A DNA stretch of 64,000 nt. Origin: Paraglaciecola marina (GTDB taxonomy: Bacteria > Pseudomonadota > Gammaproteobacteria > Enterobacterales > Alteromonadaceae). The stretch's first letter is position 1; every line of letters starts with the position of its first letter. The notes beneath the pieces are model-generated. The model ran no database searches. It worked only from the letters and a program-made list of their open reading frames with translations, and was not told the origin of the DNA. Below, piece after piece: positions 1 through 12,089 of the stretch. The stretch spans positions 62,001-126,000 of the forward strand of contig NZ_SAIS01000008.1 of the NCBI RefSeq assembly GCF_004360155.1, read 5' to 3'. Both the position numbers and the translations under genes were made by a program.

Positions 1-447
1 GTTATGAAGTACATATTTGCTATTAAGCTGTTCGTGTAATGTCAAGCTCTTTGTTAATAACGCCAAAGCATCAGCATCAAAATCTAACAAAAAATTAATA
101 ATACCTTGTTTCCGAAAGGCTTCAGCGAGCTGTAATTGGTTATCAGTGTTAAGGGCTAATTTTTCGGCTTTTTTTGCTTTAGCGTAGGCGTCGTTTAAAT
201 TATGGTTGAGGAGGTCTACGTGGGCTTGTAGGTTTAGCAGACGAGATTCTTGGTTATTATTTCCTGCTTTTTTTATTAATATTGTTACTTCAGATAATAA
301 ACTTTCTGCCAAGCTGATATTTACTAATAAATTAATTTCGGCTTTATCTAACAAGGCTTTAACTTCAGCATCATTTGCAAAGGCTGGTAGACAGTTTAAT
401 ACCGACCCTAGTAGACATAAGACTACTAGGTATCTAAATTTATTCAT
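1..447 (-). CDS. Exported repeat-like (TPR-type) protein, C-terminal part outside window
   Basis: This minus-strand frame opens at the ATG at 447-445 and runs without a stop to base 1 (149 codons), so the gene is cut by the window edge. The first 24 or so residues form a clear Sec signal peptide (MNKF, hydrophobic stretch, cleavage near AFA-ND), so the product is exported or membrane-anchored. The rest is helical and rich in Ala, Leu and Lys, with segments such as AKKAEKLAL and LAEAFRKQGIINF, as in tetratricopeptide repeats. In marine gammaproteobacteria such N-termini often precede a GGDEF or kinase module, but that part is not visible. It starts 25 bp downstream of the borosin precursor stop on the same strand and could be cotranscribed with it. 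Function is not assigned. Confidence 0.7.
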   Translation of the reverse strand, partial: MNKFRYLVVLCLLGSVLNCLPAFANDAEVKALLDKAEINLLVNISLAESLLSEVTILIKKAGNNNQESRLLNLQAHVDLLNHNLNDAYAKAKKAEKLALNTDNQLQLAEAFRKQGIINFLLDFDADALALLTKSLTLHEQLNSKYVLHN

Positions 448-471: not shown

Positions 472-681
472 CTAATTAGCGTGAGATATTTGTATGGAGT
501 CTGCTCCTTCAGCTTCTGCCCTTTGAGCCATTGCTTTTGTGTCATTTTTTACACATATTGCAACGTCTTCTGGTGTCAAACCACAACTTTCAGCCACAGC
601 TTGCGGGTCGGCTAAATATTTCTGTTTTAAAGCTTCATCTTTATCTAATTCTATTAAAAATGCGATTAAAGGATCTGTCAT
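472..681 (-). CDS. Split-borosin RiPP precursor peptide (SonA-like)
   Basis: This 69-residue peptide begins MTDPLIAFLIELDKDE and ends DSIQISHAN. I place the start at ATG 681 rather than 693: a GGAG box at 691-688 lies six bases before it, while 693 has no ribosome site. The body is acidic and helical, as in the borosin-binding domain of split-borosin precursors (formerly annotated as LigA-like), followed by a short C-terminal core. As I recall the Shewanella SonA peptide, it ends in a comparable hydrophobic stretch plus ISHGN and is N-methylated at residues 63 and 65. Here Ile63 and Ile65 fall in the same places. The matching methyltransferase lies just upstream. The family call rests on the remembered motif and context and is strong, but methylation is inferred. 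Confidence 0.85.
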   Translation of the reverse strand: MTDPLIAFLIELDKDEALKQKYLADPQAVAESCGLTPEDVAICVKNDTKAMAQRAEAEGADSIQISHAN

Positions 682-687
682 TTTATT

Positions 688-691
688 CTCC
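688..691 (-). promoter_or_regulatory. Ribosome binding site fixing the precursor start
   Basis: GGAG on the minus strand sits six bases before the ATG at 681-679. It overlaps the in-frame ATG at 693-691, which has no purine-rich box of its own. This favours the shorter 69-residue precursor. Confidence 0.6.
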
Positions 692-724
692 ATTGATTTA
701 ATGTATTAACGATTGCGATAGGTT

Positions 725-848
725 TTGTTCTTTTTCATTAGCTGTTAAGCCAAAATCTTGTGCCACACTTTTTAGATCTGCCATATTTTTGTCTTAACAC
801 ATCATTTTTATCGATTGCTATCAAGGATGCGATTAAAGGGTCATTCAT
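725..848 (-). pseudogene. Decayed second borosin precursor
   Basis: From ATG 848 the minus strand reads MNDPLIASLIAIDKNDVLRQKY, closely matching the start of the intact precursor (MTDPLIAFLIELDKDEALKQKY). The frame then shifts: the open frame ends in a stop at 740-738 after 36 residues. In the neighbouring frame homology resumes as ADLKSVAQDFGLTANE against ADPQAVAESCGLTPED. No C-terminal core like IQISHAN follows; the sequence runs straight into the leader of the next copy. The net change is equivalent to losing two bases after the KY codons, plus loss of the 3' end. A functional core peptide therefore cannot be made from this copy, although the short N-terminal fragment could still be translated. 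Confidence 0.85.
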
Positions 849-900
849 AATATTATCCAGTGATTAATATATTAACGATTGTTATTGGGGTTGCTTTTTA

Positions 901-1725
901 TTAGCCGTTGTCTGCGGATAATTCTTGTTTAAAGGTATCTGGTGTTAGGCCAAATTTTGCCATAGTTTCAGTATCATATTCTGGTAAACCCAAGCCCGGA
1001 ACCACTAGGGTACTGATGGTATTAGGCACAATATGGCCGAGTTCATTTAAAGGTATTTCATCAATTCGCGGCGCTACCAAGGGAATAGTCGCGGCCTCGT
1101 AAACAATCACTTTGTGATCAGCCGGGTAATACTTAAGTAACTCATCCATTAATACAGCTAAACCCGGGTGTTCGGTTTTATTTTCAGGATGATTAAACTC
1201 TGCGATACAGCCAATCTGCCAGATTATTTGTAACATATGTGGGTCAATTGAATAACGACGGAATAAAAATTGAGTCGCTTCGTAAGACTGACAACCAAAA
1301 CGAGCTGGGTCTAGTCCTAAGTCGGCTACAAGGCAGTCTTCGGCTGATATTCCCGGTAACATTCTTACGCTAAACCCTTTATTACGGAGTTCATTAATAG
1401 CATCATGGGAAGGGTCAACAAATACCCCAGGGTGGCCATAGAAAGCTGCGACCACTCTTTTACCTGATTCTACTTCATCGACGATACGCTGTTTCATTTT
1501 CTGGTAAGTGACTAAACGTGAAGTATTAACGTCATAGAGGTCTCGTAACGAGATGGTGTTGCTATTAATATTTTTTAAATTGATAAACGCAGACTGAGTA
1601 ACTACAGACAATACGATATCAGCATTTTTAAGGACACTTTCTGTGATGAGAGTCATTTGCCCTGAGAGAGTAATTCCCGTGCCTACAATCGTTAATGAGC
1701 CTTGTTTGTTAGGGCTGTCTGCCAT
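901..1725 (-). CDS. Borosin-type peptide alpha-N-methyltransferase (SonM/OphMA family)
   Basis: This 274-residue SAM-dependent enzyme of the tetrapyrrole methylase fold should N-methylate the backbone of the precursor core. Visible signatures are IVGTG (13-17), YDVNTSRLVTY (64-74), FYGHPGVFVDPSH (95-107), MLPGISAEDCLVADLGLDP (122-140) and QSYEATQF (146-153). These track the fungal borosin enzyme OphMA as I remember it (YGHPGVF, PGVSAEDCLFADL, YEAS). The putative catalytic residues Tyr64, Arg70, Tyr74 and Tyr96 have the same spacing as Tyr66, Arg72, Tyr76 and Tyr98 of OphMA. Unlike OphMA there is no fused core: the protein stops soon after the catalytic domain and the substrate is encoded separately downstream, as in Shewanella SonM/SonA. 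Ordinary corrin or porphyrin methylases lack this motif set and would have cobalamin or siroheme genes nearby, which are absent. Confidence 0.9.
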   Translation of the reverse strand: MADSPNKQGSLTIVGTGITLSGQMTLITESVLKNADIVLSVVTQSAFINLKNINSNTISLRDLYDVNTSRLVTYQKMKQRIVDEVESGKRVVAAFYGHPGVFVDPSHDAINELRNKGFSVRMLPGISAEDCLVADLGLDPARFGCQSYEATQFLFRRYSIDPHMLQIIWQIGCIAEFNHPENKTEHPGLAVLMDELLKYYPADHKVIVYEAATIPLVAPRIDEIPLNELGHIVPNTISTLVVPGLGLPEYDTETMAKFGLTPDTFKQELSADNG

Positions 1726-6391: not shown

Positions 6392-6943
6392 ATGAAAGCC
6401 CTAGATTTATTATTAAACAGACGTTCGCAACCTAGGTTGCAGGCTCCTGCTCCTGCTGGTGTTGTATTAGAAAATATAAAACAAGCTGCCTTAAGAGCTC
6501 CGGATCATGCGGCGTTAACTCCTTGGCAGTTTATTGTTTGTGAAGGAGAAGGGTTAGTTCGACTTGGTGAGCTATATAAACAAGCTGCGATACAATCAAA
6601 CAAATCAGAAGCTGATATTGCACGGGCGACTCAGTTACCTTTGCGAGCGCCTATGGTTATTATTGCCATTGCTAAATATACAGAACATGCAAAAGTGCCT
6701 TGGGTAGAGCAAGTGGCTTCAGCTTCTTGCGGAGTTCACGCTATGCACTTAGCTGCAATATCGCAAGGTTTCGAAGGGGTTTGGCGCACAGGCAGTTATG
6801 CCCAAGACCCAATTGTAAAAAAGGCTTTAGCGTTAACTGATAAAGATGAAATTGTAGGCTTTTTATATCTTGGTACATCAGTACTTCAACCTATGCAAAA
6901 ACCTACCTTAGATAGCCATGATTTTTTTAAAAGCTGGAATTAA
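6392..6943 (+). CDS. ydjA: Nitroreductase, YdjA family
   Basis: An FMN-dependent NAD(P)H oxidoreductase of 183 residues, the same length as E. coli YdjA. Shared family features are the N-terminal ALDLLLNRRS, APDHAALTPWQFIVCEGEG, LRAPMVIIAIAK, VPWVEQVASASCGVHAM, QGFEGVWRTG and EIVGFLYLGT. The RRS segment binds FMN phosphate in the family. The physiological substrate is not known for YdjA. It is a monocistronic gene followed by the relic of a diguanylate cyclase on the other strand. Confidence 0.9.
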   Translation: MKALDLLLNRRSQPRLQAPAPAGVVLENIKQAALRAPDHAALTPWQFIVCEGEGLVRLGELYKQAAIQSNKSEADIARATQLPLRAPMVIIAIAKYTEHAKVPWVEQVASASCGVHAMHLAAISQGFEGVWRTGSYAQDPIVKKALALTDKDEIVGFLYLGTSVLQPMQKPTLDSHDFFKSWN

Positions 6944-6958
6944 TCATGAAATGAAAGC

Positions 6959-7305
6959 TTAGCCGCCTGCAGAAACTCTTACTTGGTTTCTGCCAGAGTT
7001 TTTAGCGGCATTTAATGCACACAACCTTAGATAGTGCTTTTTAAAAAGAGGCTAATTGCTCTTTATTGTCTTGGTCTACCTTTCAATATGCTACTAGAAG
7101 TAGAGACTGGCTTAATGAAGGTGGGGTAAGTACCGTTACGCAGTATGGTTTTATTTAAATCTTTGTTTCATTGAGGAAAGGCTTTGGAGTAGTCGCTTTA
7201 CCATAATGTATAAATCAAGGAGGGGGCTGTATTAAACTTAACCATATTAGAAACTGCTTGGCGCAAGTAATCTGCTACTTGGTTTGAATTTTCTAAAAAA
7301 TTCAT
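6959..7305 (-). pseudogene. Remnant of a diguanylate cyclase (GGDEF) gene
   Basis: The minus strand from ATG 7305 reads MNFLENSNQVADYLRQAVSN, then MVKFNTAPS and YTLW, the start seen in many GGDEF proteins. It then hits frameshifts and stops. The far end, just before the TAA at 6961-6959, reads ALNAAKNSGRNQV, the classic C-terminal end of a GGDEF domain. The roughly 115 codons available are much shorter than any intact cyclase, so the catalytic centre has been deleted. Both termini surviving indicates a gene lost by internal deletion and mutation rather than a chance ORF. Confidence 0.75.
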
Positions 7306-7370
7306 TTTTCTGTCGCTGCCTAAAGAAAGTTATACATTCTTTCTGTAATAAACTCTATGTGATGACTGAT

Positions 7371-7411
7371 ATGTGACTCTAAAGTGTTTCTTAATTACTT
7401 TAGAGTCACAT
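7371..7411. terminator. Perfect 15-bp inverted repeat after the helicase gene
   Basis: ATGTGACTCTAAAGT at 7371-7385 is exactly complementary to ACTTTAGAGTCACAT at 7397-7411, with an 11-base loop. It lies 31 bp beyond the stop of the DEAD-box gene. No strong U-tract follows on the minus strand, so it may be a factor-assisted terminator, an mRNA 3'-end stabiliser or a protein-binding palindrome. Confidence 0.55.
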
Positions 7412-7442
7412 AAAACTATACTCGGTTTAAAAATTGGGGCTT

Positions 7443-8804
7443 TTAATTCTCTTCAGATGGCTCTGATGGTGCTTGTCTTGGTTTACGTTTCATTGGCATG
7501 TCACCTACCTCTTTACCTTGCATTGTATTTACTCGGCTAGCTGTTTGTTGTGGTTTGCTTTGCTTATCTTTATTTCGGTCAGTTTCTTTTTTATTTTTAG
7601 GTGCTGCTTTTTTAGCAGGTTTTAATCCTTTAAATTTAGCTTCTAAACCTTCAACTACATCTAGCTTAATATTTTGATTCAGAAAGCCCTTAATCGCCAA
7701 AAAGCTATACCAATCTTTTGGTCCTACAAATGAAACTGCTTTACCTTTATTGCCTGCTCTTCCTGTTCTACCGACTCTGTGAACATATTCGTCTGCCAAT
7801 TTAGGTAGATCAAAATTAACTACTAACGAAACATTGAGTAAATCTAGGCCTCGAGATGCAATATCTGTTGTTACTAGAATATGCTGTTGACCTCGACCAA
7901 ACTCACTCATTATGTTGTTTCTCTGCCCTTGAGTTAAATCACCACTTAGAGCAATAGAATGGAATTGCATTTCTTTTAGTAGAGTGGATAACCGTTCCGT
8001 ATCTGCTCGGGTAGCAGTAAATATAATAATTTGTCTATGTTCTTGTTGATTGATGATTTTTACTAGTAAGGCTTCTTTGTGAGTCACATTGTCAGCTAAA
8101 TAAAATGCTTGCTGTATATCTTTATGCTCTTCACTCGAAGACCCAACACTTATCCGTTGCGGCGCTTTAAGTAATAAGTGAGTTAATTCATGCATCGCAG
8201 CAGTATCTAAGGTGGCTGAAAACATCATAGATTGTCGCTTTCTGTGGTCAGCCATTTGATTTATTTGTTTGAGTTGAGACGCAAAACCTAAATCTAACAT
8301 GCGGTCTGCTTCATCAAGGATTAACAATTCTAAGCCGTTTAAAAATAGTGACTTTCCAGATAGGTGGTCAGCGATTCGACCTGCTGTACCTACTACAAAT
8401 TGTGGATTATGTTTCAATGCTTTTACTTGGTCGTTAAAGTTTTCGCCACCTAAAACCAGCGCAGCTTTAAGAGGTTGCTTAGCGATTAACCATTTAAGCT
8501 GTAAAAATACTTGTTTAGCAAGTTCTCGGGTAGGGGCCAAAATTAACACCCTAGGGTCACGTTTACTTAAAGGGTGCTTTGTTAAAACTCTATGTACGGC
8601 AGGCAGTAAAAAAGCTAGAGTTTTACCTGATCCTGTTTTAGAAGACGCAATTAGGTCTTTACCTAACATGCCATAAGGTATGGACTTTTGTTGTATTTGT
8701 GTAGGAGTGTTTAGCCCTTTAACTTCAAGGGCTTTTAATAGAATGTGATGAATACCTAAGTCACTAAATTGCAATGCATATGCTCTTAAAACGGAAATTG
8801 TCAC
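7443..8804 (-). CDS. DEAD-box ATP-dependent RNA helicase
   Basis: A 453-residue RNA helicase. In order: Q-motif region (LNTPTQIQQKSIP), motif I ASSKTGSGKT, Ia PTRELAKQ, Ib TAGR, motif II DEAD in LILDEADRMLDLGF, motif III SAT, then the second RecA domain with TDIASRGLD and VI HRVGRTGRAG. The C-terminus (about 385-453) is a Lys/Arg-rich disordered tail, as in RhlE/SrmB-type proteins involved in ribosome assembly or RNA turnover. Which E. coli helicase it matches cannot be decided here. The start is uncertain: GTG 8804, or TTG 8774 giving LQFSDLG, which fits the usual family start better. Confidence 0.9.
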   Translation of the reverse strand: MTISVLRAYALQFSDLGIHHILLKALEVKGLNTPTQIQQKSIPYGMLGKDLIASSKTGSGKTLAFLLPAVHRVLTKHPLSKRDPRVLILAPTRELAKQVFLQLKWLIAKQPLKAALVLGGENFNDQVKALKHNPQFVVGTAGRIADHLSGKSLFLNGLELLILDEADRMLDLGFASQLKQINQMADHRKRQSMMFSATLDTAAMHELTHLLLKAPQRISVGSSSEEHKDIQQAFYLADNVTHKEALLVKIINQQEHRQIIIFTATRADTERLSTLLKEMQFHSIALSGDLTQGQRNNIMSEFGRGQQHILVTTDIASRGLDLLNVSLVVNFDLPKLADEYVHRVGRTGRAGNKGKAVSFVGPKDWYSFLAIKGFLNQNIKLDVVEGLEAKFKGLKPAKKAAPKNKKETDRNKDKQSKPQQTASRVNTMQGKEVGDMPMKRKPRQAPSEPSEEN

Positions 8805-8888
8805 AATTATACAAGTTGCAGCCGTTTATACCATCAAAGGATTAACTTACATAGGCACTTAAAGACTTTCTAGCTTTTAGTTACAGGC

Positions 8889-9545
8889 CTAAAAGGACAT
8901 ATCTGGTGTGTTTTCAGTGATAATCAATTTTCCGGCTGTTTTTGATTTTATTTCTTCTACAGTTACGTCAGGTGCTTTCTCTTTTAAGTGAAAAGCTCCA
9001 TCTTTAACTTCTATAACAGCTAAGTCGGTGATTATTCGATTTATACAGTTTACGCCAGTTAAAGGTAGGGTACATGAGTCCAATAGTTTTGAGTTTCCGT
9101 GTTTATCTGCATGGGTCATGGTGACGATTATATTGCGAGCTCCTGCAACTAGATCCATTGCGCCACCCATACCCTTAATTAGTTTACCTGGGATCATCCA
9201 AGAGGCGATACTTCCAGACACATCTACTTCGAATGCACCAAGTACAGTTAAATCTACATGGCCACCTCTTATCATGGCAAAGCTCTCAGCTGAACTAAAA
9301 ATAGATGCACCTTTGCTAGCTGTAACCGTTTCTTTACCAGCGTTGATCATGTCTGCATCGACTTGCTCTTCAGTTGGGTAGGGCCCCATACCTAGTAAAC
9401 CATTTTCTGACTGCAACATTACTTCAATATCTTTATCTACATAGTTTGCTGCCAGTGTAGGAATGCCAATGCCTAAATTTACATAATCACCATCACTGAA
9501 TTCTTGTGCCACTCTCATGGCAATTTGCTCTCTACTTAATGACAT
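8889..9545 (-). CDS. scoB: Succinyl-CoA:3-ketoacid CoA-transferase subunit B
   Basis: The beta subunit of 3-oxoacid CoA-transferase, which moves CoA from succinyl-CoA to acetoacetate for ketone-body or acetoacetate use. Its 218 residues fit the family. Visible motifs are the start REQIAMRVAQEF, NLGIGIPTLA, and SENGLLGMGP, whose Glu (about residue 47) is the catalytic residue that forms the glutamyl-CoA thioester. GGHVDLTVLGAFEVD and KGMGGAMDLVAGA follow. It lies 9 bp downstream of subunit A on the same strand, forming one operon with it. A LysR regulator is divergent. Confidence 0.93.
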   Translation of the reverse strand: MSLSREQIAMRVAQEFSDGDYVNLGIGIPTLAANYVDKDIEVMLQSENGLLGMGPYPTEEQVDADMINAGKETVTASKGASIFSSAESFAMIRGGHVDLTVLGAFEVDVSGSIASWMIPGKLIKGMGGAMDLVAGARNIIVTMTHADKHGNSKLLDSCTLPLTGVNCINRIITDLAVIEVKDGAFHLKEKAPDVTVEEIKSKTAGKLIITENTPDMSF

Positions 9546-9554
9546 AACTATCTC

Positions 9555-10268
9555 CTATTGGTTATTAGTTGTAGGAGTGAGTATTTTACGCTCAATCCTT
9601 TTCTCAAAAGTGCCAACTATTACCCGGTCTACATAAATGCCAGGGGTATGGATTTCGCTAGGGTTTAATGAACCTGTTTCCACAAGTTCTTCAACTTCAA
9701 CTACTGTTATTTTTCCAGCTGTAGCAGCCATAGGATTAAAGTTTTGTGCCGTATGTCGATAGATACAATTGCCGTACTTGTCTGCCTTCCATGCCTTAAC
9801 TATTGAAAAGTCGCCAGTGACTGATTCTTCCATTATGTAACTACGGTCACCAAATTTTCGGGTTTCTTTTCCTTCGCCTACTGGGGTGCCATAACCTGTT
9901 GCAGTATAAAATGCAGGAATACCTGCACCCCCTGCTCTCATTTTTTCTGCTAGTGTTCCTTGTGGCGTCAGCTCTACTTCTAACTCTCCGCTAAGCAGTT
10001 GCTGTTCAAATAATGCGTTTTCGCCAACGTAAGAAGAAATCATCTTTCTAATTTGTTTTTGCTGTAATAACACACCTAATCCAAACCCATCCACACCGCA
10101 GTTGTTGGATACTACTGTTAGGTTTGTTGTTGCCATTTTACGAATTTGCGAAATTAACCCTTCTGGGATACCACATAAGCCAAATCCGCCAGCAATAATT
10201 GTCATATTGTCAGTCAAACCAGCCATTGCGGCATCATAACTTTCTACAACTTTATTAAAACCTGCCAT
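9555..10268 (-). CDS. scoA: Succinyl-CoA:3-ketoacid CoA-transferase subunit A
   Basis: The alpha subunit of the same heteromeric enzyme, 237 residues. The CoA-binding [13 protein letters not shown] lies near residues 27-39, followed by [56 protein letters not shown] and the C-terminal [10 protein letters not shown]. First gene of the scoAB operon. The 108-bp gap to the divergent LysR gene should hold both promoters, which fits LysR control of the operon. Confidence 0.93.
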
Positions 10269-10376
10269 ATTTATTTCCTCTCTAAACTCAGTGACTTCAG
10301 TTTAGGAGATAATATTCAATAGTAAAATTGAATTAATGTGTGTATTAATAGATAAAATTTATTAATTGGTTTGCCT

Positions 10377-11288
10377 ATGATCAGTAATGTTTCTTTTAAA
10401 CAATTAAATATATTTGTGTGTATTGCTAATTCTCATACTTTTGCAGAAGCAGCTGAAAAAATTTGTTTATCACAACCTGCTTTATCATCAGCCATAAAAA
10501 AAATGGAGCTTCAGGTTGGTGGGGAATTGTTTTCTAGGACCACTCGTAAGGTCGAGTTAACGCCTGAGGGCAAATTGTTTATCCCTGTGGCTAAAAGGCT
10601 AATTTATGATTGGCAACAGGCATTTTCTGATCTTCATAATTTATTTTCACTCGGGCAAGGTAACTTGTCTATTGCTGCAATGCCCTCTTTTGCTGCGGGT
10701 TTATTACCAAGTATTCTGCAAAAATTTACTGGGTTATATCCAAATATTAAGCTTGCCGTTAATGATGTTGTAATGGAGCGTGTAATACAGAATGTTCAGG
10801 AGGGGCGTGCAGAAATTGGATTTTCATTTGAGTCTGAAAAAATGGAAGGTTTGGAGTTTCACCCGTTATTCGAAGATTGTTTCATGGCTGTATTACCTAA
10901 ATCTCATCCATTGGCTCAACATTCAAGTGTATCTTGGCCACAGTTAGCATCGTATCCTTATGTTGCTATGAATAAGGGCTCTGCTATTCGGCGCTGGATT
11001 GATGCTTACATGGAAACTCAAATTGCAACATTAAACATCGTCGCAGAAGCTAGCCAGTTGGCGACTTTGGGGCAATTTGTGAATTATGATTTAGGTGTCT
11101 CTGTAGTACCTGTTTTATGTCGAGAGCAAATGCTAAGTAAAGGATTGACTTGTGTACCCATTACAGAAAATCATTTAAATAAACAAGTTGGCATCATCAG
11201 ACTTAGAAAAGGTACTTTGTCTTCAGTTGCTCAAGCATTTTGGAGGTGGGTAGCAGATAACGTGCATGCTAATTTTCCGGCCGAGTAA
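10377..11288 (+). CDS. LysR-family regulator divergent from scoAB
   Basis: A 303-residue LysR regulator. The winged helix-turn-helix covers residues 1-60 (FKQLNIFVCIANSHTFAEAAEKI, then LSQPALSSAIKKMEL, FSRTTRKVELTPEG). The periplasmic-binding-like effector domain starts near residue 90 with GNLSIAAMPSFAAGLLP. I take ATG 10377 as start; a TTG two codons upstream is less likely. The divergent arrangement with scoAB is typical of LysR regulators and their targets, so it may sense acetoacetate or a related acid. That is inference. Confidence 0.88.
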   Translation: MISNVSFKQLNIFVCIANSHTFAEAAEKICLSQPALSSAIKKMELQVGGELFSRTTRKVELTPEGKLFIPVAKRLIYDWQQAFSDLHNLFSLGQGNLSIAAMPSFAAGLLPSILQKFTGLYPNIKLAVNDVVMERVIQNVQEGRAEIGFSFESEKMEGLEFHPLFEDCFMAVLPKSHPLAQHSSVSWPQLASYPYVAMNKGSAIRRWIDAYMETQIATLNIVAEASQLATLGQFVNYDLGVSVVPVLCREQMLSKGLTCVPITENHLNKQVGIIRLRKGTLSSVAQAFWRWVADNVHANFPAE

Positions 11289-11321
11289 TCGACTTAAATT
11301 TAGTTAACAAGCCTTGATGGG

Positions 11322-12089
11322 TTACCACTTTTTCTTTTCTGCAAAGAGTTCATCTAATTCATTACGTTCAGACTCTTGTTTCTCGGCGACGTCTTTGCTG
11401 TTAGCTCTTTTAAGGTTATTTTCAATATCTGACAACTTTTCTTGAAGTTTACTTTTTCGAGCGGTGATATATTCATCTTGATTAGGTTGAGAGGATAGGG
11501 CACCAATGGCTTTTTCTAAACATTGTCGAGCAGAGCCTAATTGGTTATTTTTTAAGGCTATCTCGCCACGGCGTATTAATGTGTCAACATTTGCTCTAAG
11601 TTGGAGCCGTTCAAGGAGTTTATCTTCTGCCAAAAATACACGACTTTCGAGTCTGCCTTTTTTAAACTCTGCCCGTAACAGCGCTCTTAGGGTTTTTATC
11701 CCTTTAATAAATTGAATCACATGTTTATCGGCTTGGGGAAGCTTAAATTGGTCTTCTGGGGGAGCGGGTTGTGTTATATCAATGGCTTTCAGTTCTTCCT
11801 CAAGACCTTTTATTTGTTGGTTATAATTAGTGGTTCCATCGCTTACGCTTTGCAATGCTTTGGTTGCCATAAAAACCCTGCGCTTCATTATAAACAAAAA
11901 TCTTTGCGTAAAAGGGATACCTTCGGCAGCCTTCAATGCTGCTTCTGTGTTCTCAATGATTGCTTTCTGTTTTGATGCTTCAGCCCGACGTTCCGTTTCC
12001 ATTTTATTTTTATGCTGTTGCATAGCGTTAACAATGACGCCTATAAGCACCAATGAAACGATTAACACTATAATTATTGTGAACATCAT
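11322..12089 (-). CDS. Membrane-anchored coiled-coil protein of unknown function
   Basis: A 255-residue protein with one N-terminal membrane segment (MMFTIIIVLIVSLVLIGVIV) followed by a charged helical body. Long heptad-like stretches appear around 25-60 and 180-245, and the C-terminus is very charged (ELDELFAEKKKW). The middle (about 140-200) has helix pairs with ALKNNQLGSARQCLEKAI, resembling a TPR-like hairpin. I do not recognise a named family; similar proteins occur in alteromonads and shewanellae as hypothetical proteins. It lies 52 bp downstream of an orphan histidine kinase on the same strand and may be cotranscribed with it. Confidence 0.7.
   Translation of the reverse strand: MMFTIIIVLIVSLVLIGVIVNAMQQHKNKMETERRAEASKQKAIIENTEAALKAAEGIPFTQRFLFIMKRRVFMATKALQSVSDGTTNYNQQIKGLEEELKAIDITQPAPPEDQFKLPQADKHVIQFIKGIKTLRALLRAEFKKGRLESRVFLAEDKLLERLQLRANVDTLIRRGEIALKNNQLGSARQCLEKAIGALSSQPNQDEYITARKSKLQEKLSDIENNLKRANSKDVAEKQESERNELDELFAEKKKW

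Follow-up and report, generated by a model that had tools for sequence, protein, structure and literature searches.

A 64,000-nt stretch of Paraglaciecola marina DNA (the window: positions 62,001-126,000 of the 242,717-base contig NZ_SAIS01000008.1, assembly GCF_004360155.1, genome 4.64 Mb) encodes a peptide alpha-N-methyltransferase and a separate precursor peptide, which our analysis supports as a type IV split borosin pair (SonM/SonA type), next to a hybrid histidine kinase with a tetratricopeptide-repeat (TPR) domain. We propose, with a probability of roughly two in three, that this gene row makes a backbone N-methylated peptide signal together with its receptor, the processed N-methylated core being the ligand of the TPR sensor. 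The proposal draws on family membership, gene architecture, conserved linkage, predicted sensor topology and the way in which core and TPR domain covary among relatives, all computed here. The enzyme-precursor pair is of a known kind, and the linkage to a receptor is the novel part.

The best match of the enzyme in the PDB is SonM (7ltc; phmmer E 1.4e-60), followed by OphMA-type enzymes at about 1e-49, and its match to the Pfam family TP_methylase is 1.5e-18. It is 44% identical to SonM (111/253) and keeps, as Y64, R70, Y74 and Y96, all four SonM residues probed by kinetics, Y58, R67, Y71 and Y93 (PMC8429565); these four positions are invariant across a 10-sequence alignment. Its start codon is preceded by AAGG. 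Membership in the cobalamin, siroheme, RsmI or YabN methylases was considered and rejected, the scores lying far under the curated NCBIfam cut-offs (bits/cut-off: YabN 47/525, the best; CysG 30/400; CobA-type 22/185; RsmI-type 19/502). Identity of the enzyme is 65-67% with Alteromonas and Aliiglaciecola loci but lower, 55-58%, with the other loci of Paraglaciecola, a pattern that suggests horizontal transfer or an old duplicate.

The 69-residue precursor matches SonA weakly in sequence (E 0.0098), in an alignment that reaches the last residue and lays the tail ...SIQISHAN on ...SYLVISHGN. SonA is N-methylated at L63 and I65 (PMC8429565), and the precursor has isoleucine at both aligned positions. 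An AlphaFold model based on an alignment of 46 precursors displays five helices (residues 4-14, 16-24, 26-32, 37-44 and 48-57) and a disordered tail (mean pLDDT 80, pTM 0.57), the anatomy described for SonA (PMC8429565). With this model as the query, the first 13 PDB rows returned by Foldseek were 51-72-residue chains of SonM-SonA entries (best E 0.22, probability 0.98), with no match under E 0.001; these rows are supportive of a SonA-like five-helix leader, though not decisive alone. The start at 681 was preferred over that at 693 because GGAG lies six bases before its ATG.

An earlier note on this stretch, made from its letters without database searches, had read 901-1725 as a SonM/OphMA-type alpha-N-methyltransferase and 472-681 as its precursor on the same strand. 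The SonM match, the kept active-site residues, the SonA match and the five-helix model together support this identification, and the open reading frames (ORFs) of both enzyme and precursor are confirmed at the places given, on the minus strand. The likeness that the note drew between the end IQISHAN and that of SonA is found in the alignment; the separate neighbouring precursor, the predicted leader and a core lying on L63 and I65 agree with the Shewanella split system that it had invoked. The search of both proteins against the borosin families, which the note had suggested, led the enzyme to SonM and then OphMA and the precursor, weakly, to SonA, and the alignment with cobalamin-type methylases that it had held up against its own reading did not occur. 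Enzyme and precursor very probably make a backbone-methylated peptide.

On the minus strand the enzyme gene is followed by a degenerate precursor copy, the precursor and, after a gap of 24 bp, the kinase gene, which extends beyond the window start. The kinase (1066 aa) contains a TPR domain, HisKA (1.1e-16), HATPase_c (8.4e-30) and two receiver stretches (Response_reg 1.5e-46), which make it a hybrid histidine kinase, and a weak Hpt match below cut-off. A hydrophobicity scan, the only topology evidence used, gives segments at 6-24 and 379-397 and a weak one at 40-58, and the TPR domain is predicted to be periplasmic. In the window genome the linked kinase is by far the best TPR-profile match (5.7e-70; next 1.6e-18), and the same holds for the linked TPR protein of Shewanella sp. 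ANA-3 (5.4e-141; next 1.8e-10). The earlier note had left the final product and its role without an answer; the role can now be narrowed by the adjoining sensor kinase, which the window cuts, while its remark that no protease or exporter gene is to be seen beside the locus stands.

A scan of a genome collection gave 352 relatives, and the named loci are the best 80 of these. In 64 of the 80, an ORF of 400 aa or more on the enzyme's strand starts within 800 bases downstream. A Pfam scan of the downstream ORFs, which also took in the window kinase and three genus relatives, was made on two sets: histidine-kinase and receiver domains were present in 27/28 members of the one (TPR_12 in 26/28) and GGDEF in 33/40 of the other (TPR_12 in 23/40). 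The set of 40 contains four plain non-sensors (L045, L084, L086 and L103), in whose loci the sensor lies upstream instead. Searched with profiles of the TPR region, 71/80 loci have a same-strand example of the domain no more than 1.5 kb from the enzyme, on either side of it; 32 of these proteins carry a histidine kinase, 37 a GGDEF domain and two neither (L092, and L104 at a contig end). Of the nine remaining loci, L035 and L056 are cut by a contig end, L058, L071 and L062 have the sensor 1.9-3.1 kb away (on the opposite strand in L062), L069 is followed by an apparent Ser/Thr kinase, and L074, L091 and L096 have no TPR domain in the profile scan. The association spans Gamma-, Beta- and Alphaproteobacteria.

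The precursor profile matches within 1 kb of the enzyme on the same strand in 63/80 loci. Seven loci with the sensor upstream (L045, L055, L059, L060, L070, L084 and L103) have the precursor before that sensor, at 1.7-2.5 kb upstream from the enzyme; precursor and sensor thus remain neighbours despite the changed gene order. No match to this profile was found within 3 kb in 7/80 loci (L071, L079, L081, L086, L091, L094 and L101), four of which (L079, L081, L094 and L101) have an acidic-tailed ORF in its place. The profile (A6) was built from 45 of 63 extracted precursors and that of the window, with some starts trimmed; it omits acidic-tailed precursors, first copies, one X-containing sequence and nine others. 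In its making 19/80 loci were passed over as precursor-less, several wrongly, as precursors lie within 1 kb in L046, L067, L069, L074, L089 and L098. Within the genus the enzyme is present in 9/22 genomes. The order enzyme, precursor, TPR histidine kinase holds in each of the five closer-type relatives (55-57% identity). In the three loci examined of a more distant type (L020, L022 and L023) the enzyme is followed by a short ORF that is acidic and then by a protein of 568-585 aa whose C-terminus is GGDEF-like. In another genus relative (L024:7901-8715) two ORFs that overlap share the methyltransferase match between them, which probably reflects a pseudogene or an error of assembly.

An order-wide sample of 394 genomes contained 143 enzyme loci in 95 genomes and 150 TPR-profile matches in 90. 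The TPR match lies within 5 kb of an enzyme in 135/150 cases, and 119/143 enzymes have such a match within 5 kb; 86 genomes have both, nine the enzyme alone, four the TPR match alone and 295 neither. As the genomes are related to one another, a Fisher p computed from these four counts should not be taken for a true probability. Because the TPR profiles derive from borosin-linked proteins (26 of 59 extracted TPR regions for A4, 30 for A5), they have a built-in bias in favour of such proteins, to which the 295 genomes with neither enzyme nor TPR match are a counterweight. Among the 24 enzyme loci lacking a sensor, 23 match at E 1.3e-97 or weaker, a range that also includes loci with a sensor. 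BLASTP comparison of neighbours in inter-genus pairs found homology at the +1 gene in 19.9% of pairs and at five other positions in 0.7-3.9%; the 3.9% at position -1 fits the loci that have the sensor upstream.

In close Shewanella relatives, core and TPR domain diverge jointly, and enzyme and output domains stay nearly the same. S. oncorhynchi L072 and S. hafniensis L085 are 97% identical in the enzyme, 99% in the cytoplasmic output and 53% in the TPR domain, and their cores are FILVNHGNN and SYLVISHGNGE, respectively. Likewise, ANA-3 (L082; core FVLVNHGNN) and S. xiamenensis (L090; core SYLIISCGIGD) show 99%, 96% and 51%. Over the Shewanella loci, TPR domains that accompany like cores are 74-98% identical in the FxLVNHGNN group and 67-96% in the SYL group, against 46-54% between groups. 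In these two pairs and in L073/L076 a divergent block runs from the precursor tail to near the end of the TPR domain: identity inside it (signal peptide and TPR domain) is 20-73% and returns from about residue 330 to 87-100% (69% in one last interval), before the transmembrane helix. Each of the two cassette types is present in two Shewanella backgrounds, which points to an exchange of core-TPR cassettes. The S. benthica pair L064/L066 (enzyme 93%, output 93%, TPR 27%) differs in the entire precursor.

For a wider comparison, 87 of 114 loci (85 distinct) yielded all three parts; output class was assigned by length, which puts short kinases in the cyclase class, and 33 added loci were taken as Shewanella by group label. 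Over 161 pairs from 50 loci with enzyme identity of at least 80%, core identity correlates with TPR identity at a partial r of 0.85 given enzyme and output, and with output identity at 0.11 given enzyme and TPR. None of 2000 permutations reached 0.85, with the caveat that pairs are not independent and that permutation ignores relatedness. With the leader as an added covariate the core-TPR value is 0.82, the leader's own with the TPR domain being 0.56; the kinase group alone gives 0.64 (41 pairs). The core-sensor pair of the window has no close relative (nearest enzyme 67%), and the ligand claim for this pair therefore rests on homology.

Methylation, processing, export, binding and output are the steps that we infer for the locus. 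The methyltransferase would bind the helical leader of the precursor and N-methylate the tail, most likely at the two isoleucines of SIQIS; a protease encoded elsewhere than nearby would then free a short C-terminal peptide, which would get to the periplasm and there bind the co-encoded membrane sensor at its TPR domain, controlling the histidine kinase or, in relatives, a diguanylate cyclase. According to PMC8429565, N-methylation promotes membrane permeability and resistance to proteases, which might stand in for a dedicated exporter. For the proteobacterial split borosins of this group as a whole, we regard as an even bet the broader idea of a peptide pheromone system, in which cells signal by a backbone N-methylated core of their own making, a dedicated TPR receptor in the periplasm feeds a histidine-kinase phosphorelay or cyclic di-GMP synthesis, and pherotypes arise by core-TPR cassette exchange.

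Many RiPPs (ribosomally synthesized and post-translationally modified peptides) are effectors, and the product could be an ordinary secreted bioactive peptide, for instance antimicrobial or metal-binding, which the TPR sensor merely monitors for production or self-protection. Diversity of the cores is expected of antagonism too, and a sensor matched to such a product would also covary with it; yet no other neighbour recurs, the non-sensor positions staying at the low inter-genus homology given above, and the sensor is the one partner that stays, joined to output domains of two kinds, so that we consider this account unlikely. We give still less weight to the idea that the uncleaved, methylated precursor is itself a regulator, acting as a partner to the signalling protein and switched by methylation. 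It would suit the lack of a protease or exporter gene seen adjoining the window locus, the different folds of the methylated and unmethylated SonA tail (PMC8429565), the S. benthica exception and the leader-TPR correlation, but the TPR domain is predicted to be periplasmic and the precursor has no signal peptide, and close Shewanella pairs keep the leader while core and TPR domain change.

That the TPR protein is a periplasmic processing or carrier partner, its output domains being secondary, appears very improbable: most partners in the named loci bear an output domain, as counted above, although three genomes (L146, L147 and L148) have two to four stand-alone TPR proteins of 354-368 aa after enzyme and precursor, with signal-like N-termini and no output domain. 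Least credible to us is a sensor that simply hitchhikes beside the pair, with the coupled divergence a functionless recombination patch. Core and TPR domain are indeed contiguous in DNA and the loci are related by descent, but in the three Shewanella pairs the divergent block sets in at the precursor tail and stops close to where the TPR domain ends, each cassette type is present in two backgrounds, and the association extends over three proteobacterial classes. A core peptide recognised by its neighbouring TPR sensor is the reading that we prefer.

The coordinates of the features are collected in Table 1. A scan of the locus found five promoter-like sites (8.6 expected) and no terminator-like site (1.4 expected). 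In the degenerate copy, which directly follows the enzyme gene, the profile matches at 780-848 (E 0.033) and the resemblance stops within the leader; its DNA alignment with the precursor scores 156, against a maximum of 84.5 among 200 shuffles. It recalls the extra, first precursor of L076 and L083 (7834-8112 in both), whose core SFLLVNHGN is like that of the other cassette, with an extended tail, and which precedes the present precursor (SYLIISCGIGD or SYLVISHGNGD), perhaps as a relic of a cassette change. The next genes, for a class I methyltransferase and a Yip1-domain protein, were rejected as tailoring or export functions, their Pfam matches being to generic methyltransferase and Yip1, and were excluded from the system, positions +2 and +3 being homologous in just 1.3% and 0.7% of inter-genus pairs.

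Table 1. Features of the split-borosin locus (window coordinates)
Feature	Position	Strand	Basis
SonM-type split-borosin peptide alpha-N-methyltransferase, 274 aa	901..1725	-	phmmer SonM, Pfam TP_methylase, active-site residues
SonA-type precursor of 69 aa, with a borosin-binding leader whose predicted helices fall in residues 4-57 and a core region at the C-terminus	472..681	-	SonA match, helix model, Foldseek
Predicted core region SIQISHAN and stop	472..498	-	alignment with SonA; Ile at positions matching N-methylated L63, I65
Degenerate second precursor copy, broken frame, no core	735..895	-	profile match and DNA alignment
TPR hybrid histidine kinase, first 149 of 1066 codons (signal peptide, start of TPR domain)	1..447	-	remainder precedes window, L002:9247-12447

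Several loci depart from the common pattern. In L069 (about 6917-11788) the methyltransferase match is part of an ORF of 578 aa, closely preceded by two precursor-like ORFs and followed by a 1002-aa protein, an apparent Ser/Thr kinase with one transmembrane-like segment; a Ser/Thr kinase as a third sensor output was rejected, L069 being the only member (by its N-terminus) and lacking an A4 or A5 match. The Kangiella precursors (L056:4597-4797 and L058:7864-8064) have KLLLL twice in the tail (KLLLLEP... and KLLLLTP...), which may represent two cores. A second class of precursor-like sequences, marked by a strongly acidic tail at the C-terminus (L079, L080, L081, L094, L100, L101, L149 and, in the genus, L020, L022 and L023) adjoins more distant methyltransferases, followed in most cases by TPR-GGDEF proteins; in L149, two near-identical copies are present and a sensor match is absent.

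Compared with known systems, the locus is closest to SonM/SonA of Shewanella oneidensis MR-1 (PMC8429565), with which it shares a discrete enzyme and precursor, the catalytic residues, a leader predicted to have five helices and a short core at the C-terminus in which both methylated positions are aliphatic; it differs in an enzyme of 44% identity, in its core (SIQISHAN instead of SYLVISHGN) and in the histidine kinase that follows. The Shewanella loci studied here (e.g. that of ANA-3, not MR-1's own) are followed by a TPR diguanylate cyclase. Fungal borosins (OphMA, dbOphMA) share the methyltransferase family (E about 1e-49) but join core and enzyme in one chain, where the window has two genes. 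In the available text of PMC8429565, supplements excluded, GGDEF, histidine kinase and tetratricopeptide are each absent as whole words. The literature surveyed by title and start of abstract, which did not cover the split-borosin papers Imani 2022 and Lee 2024 cited by PMC11395268, contained no link of borosins to TPR, GGDEF or histidine-kinase proteins.

RRNPP receptors of Gram-positive bacteria (Rap-Phr, NprR-NprX, PlcR-PapR) are cytoplasmic and bind re-imported peptides. Membership of the sensor in this family was rejected: the TPR superhelix is present, the fold alone being in common, and the best matches are to LGN. Unlike these cytoplasmic, anchor-free receptors, the window kinase has hydrophobic segments, and its TPR domain is predicted to be periplasmic, such domains here driving a membrane kinase or cyclase. 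The agr (AgrD/AgrC) and comQXPA (ComX/ComP) systems resemble the locus in the adjacency of modifying enzyme, peptide precursor and membrane sensor, although their sensor domain is unrelated; their chemistry is thiolactone formation or prenylation and their hosts are Gram-positive. In both, variation in the peptide goes along with variation in the sensor domain and leaves the output domain conserved, a polymorphism of pheromone and receptor with the same pattern as the core-TPR covariation.

If the pheromone reading is true, it would, to our knowledge, assign a role to a bacterial borosin for the first time and supply the first ribosomal pheromone that is N-methylated, and bacteria would gain peptide signalling with an unusual chemistry. 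A core that is the ligand of a dedicated receptor would make the function of a large bacterial RiPP family directly testable, and the TPR gene would be a handle for predicting the core recognised by each receptor.
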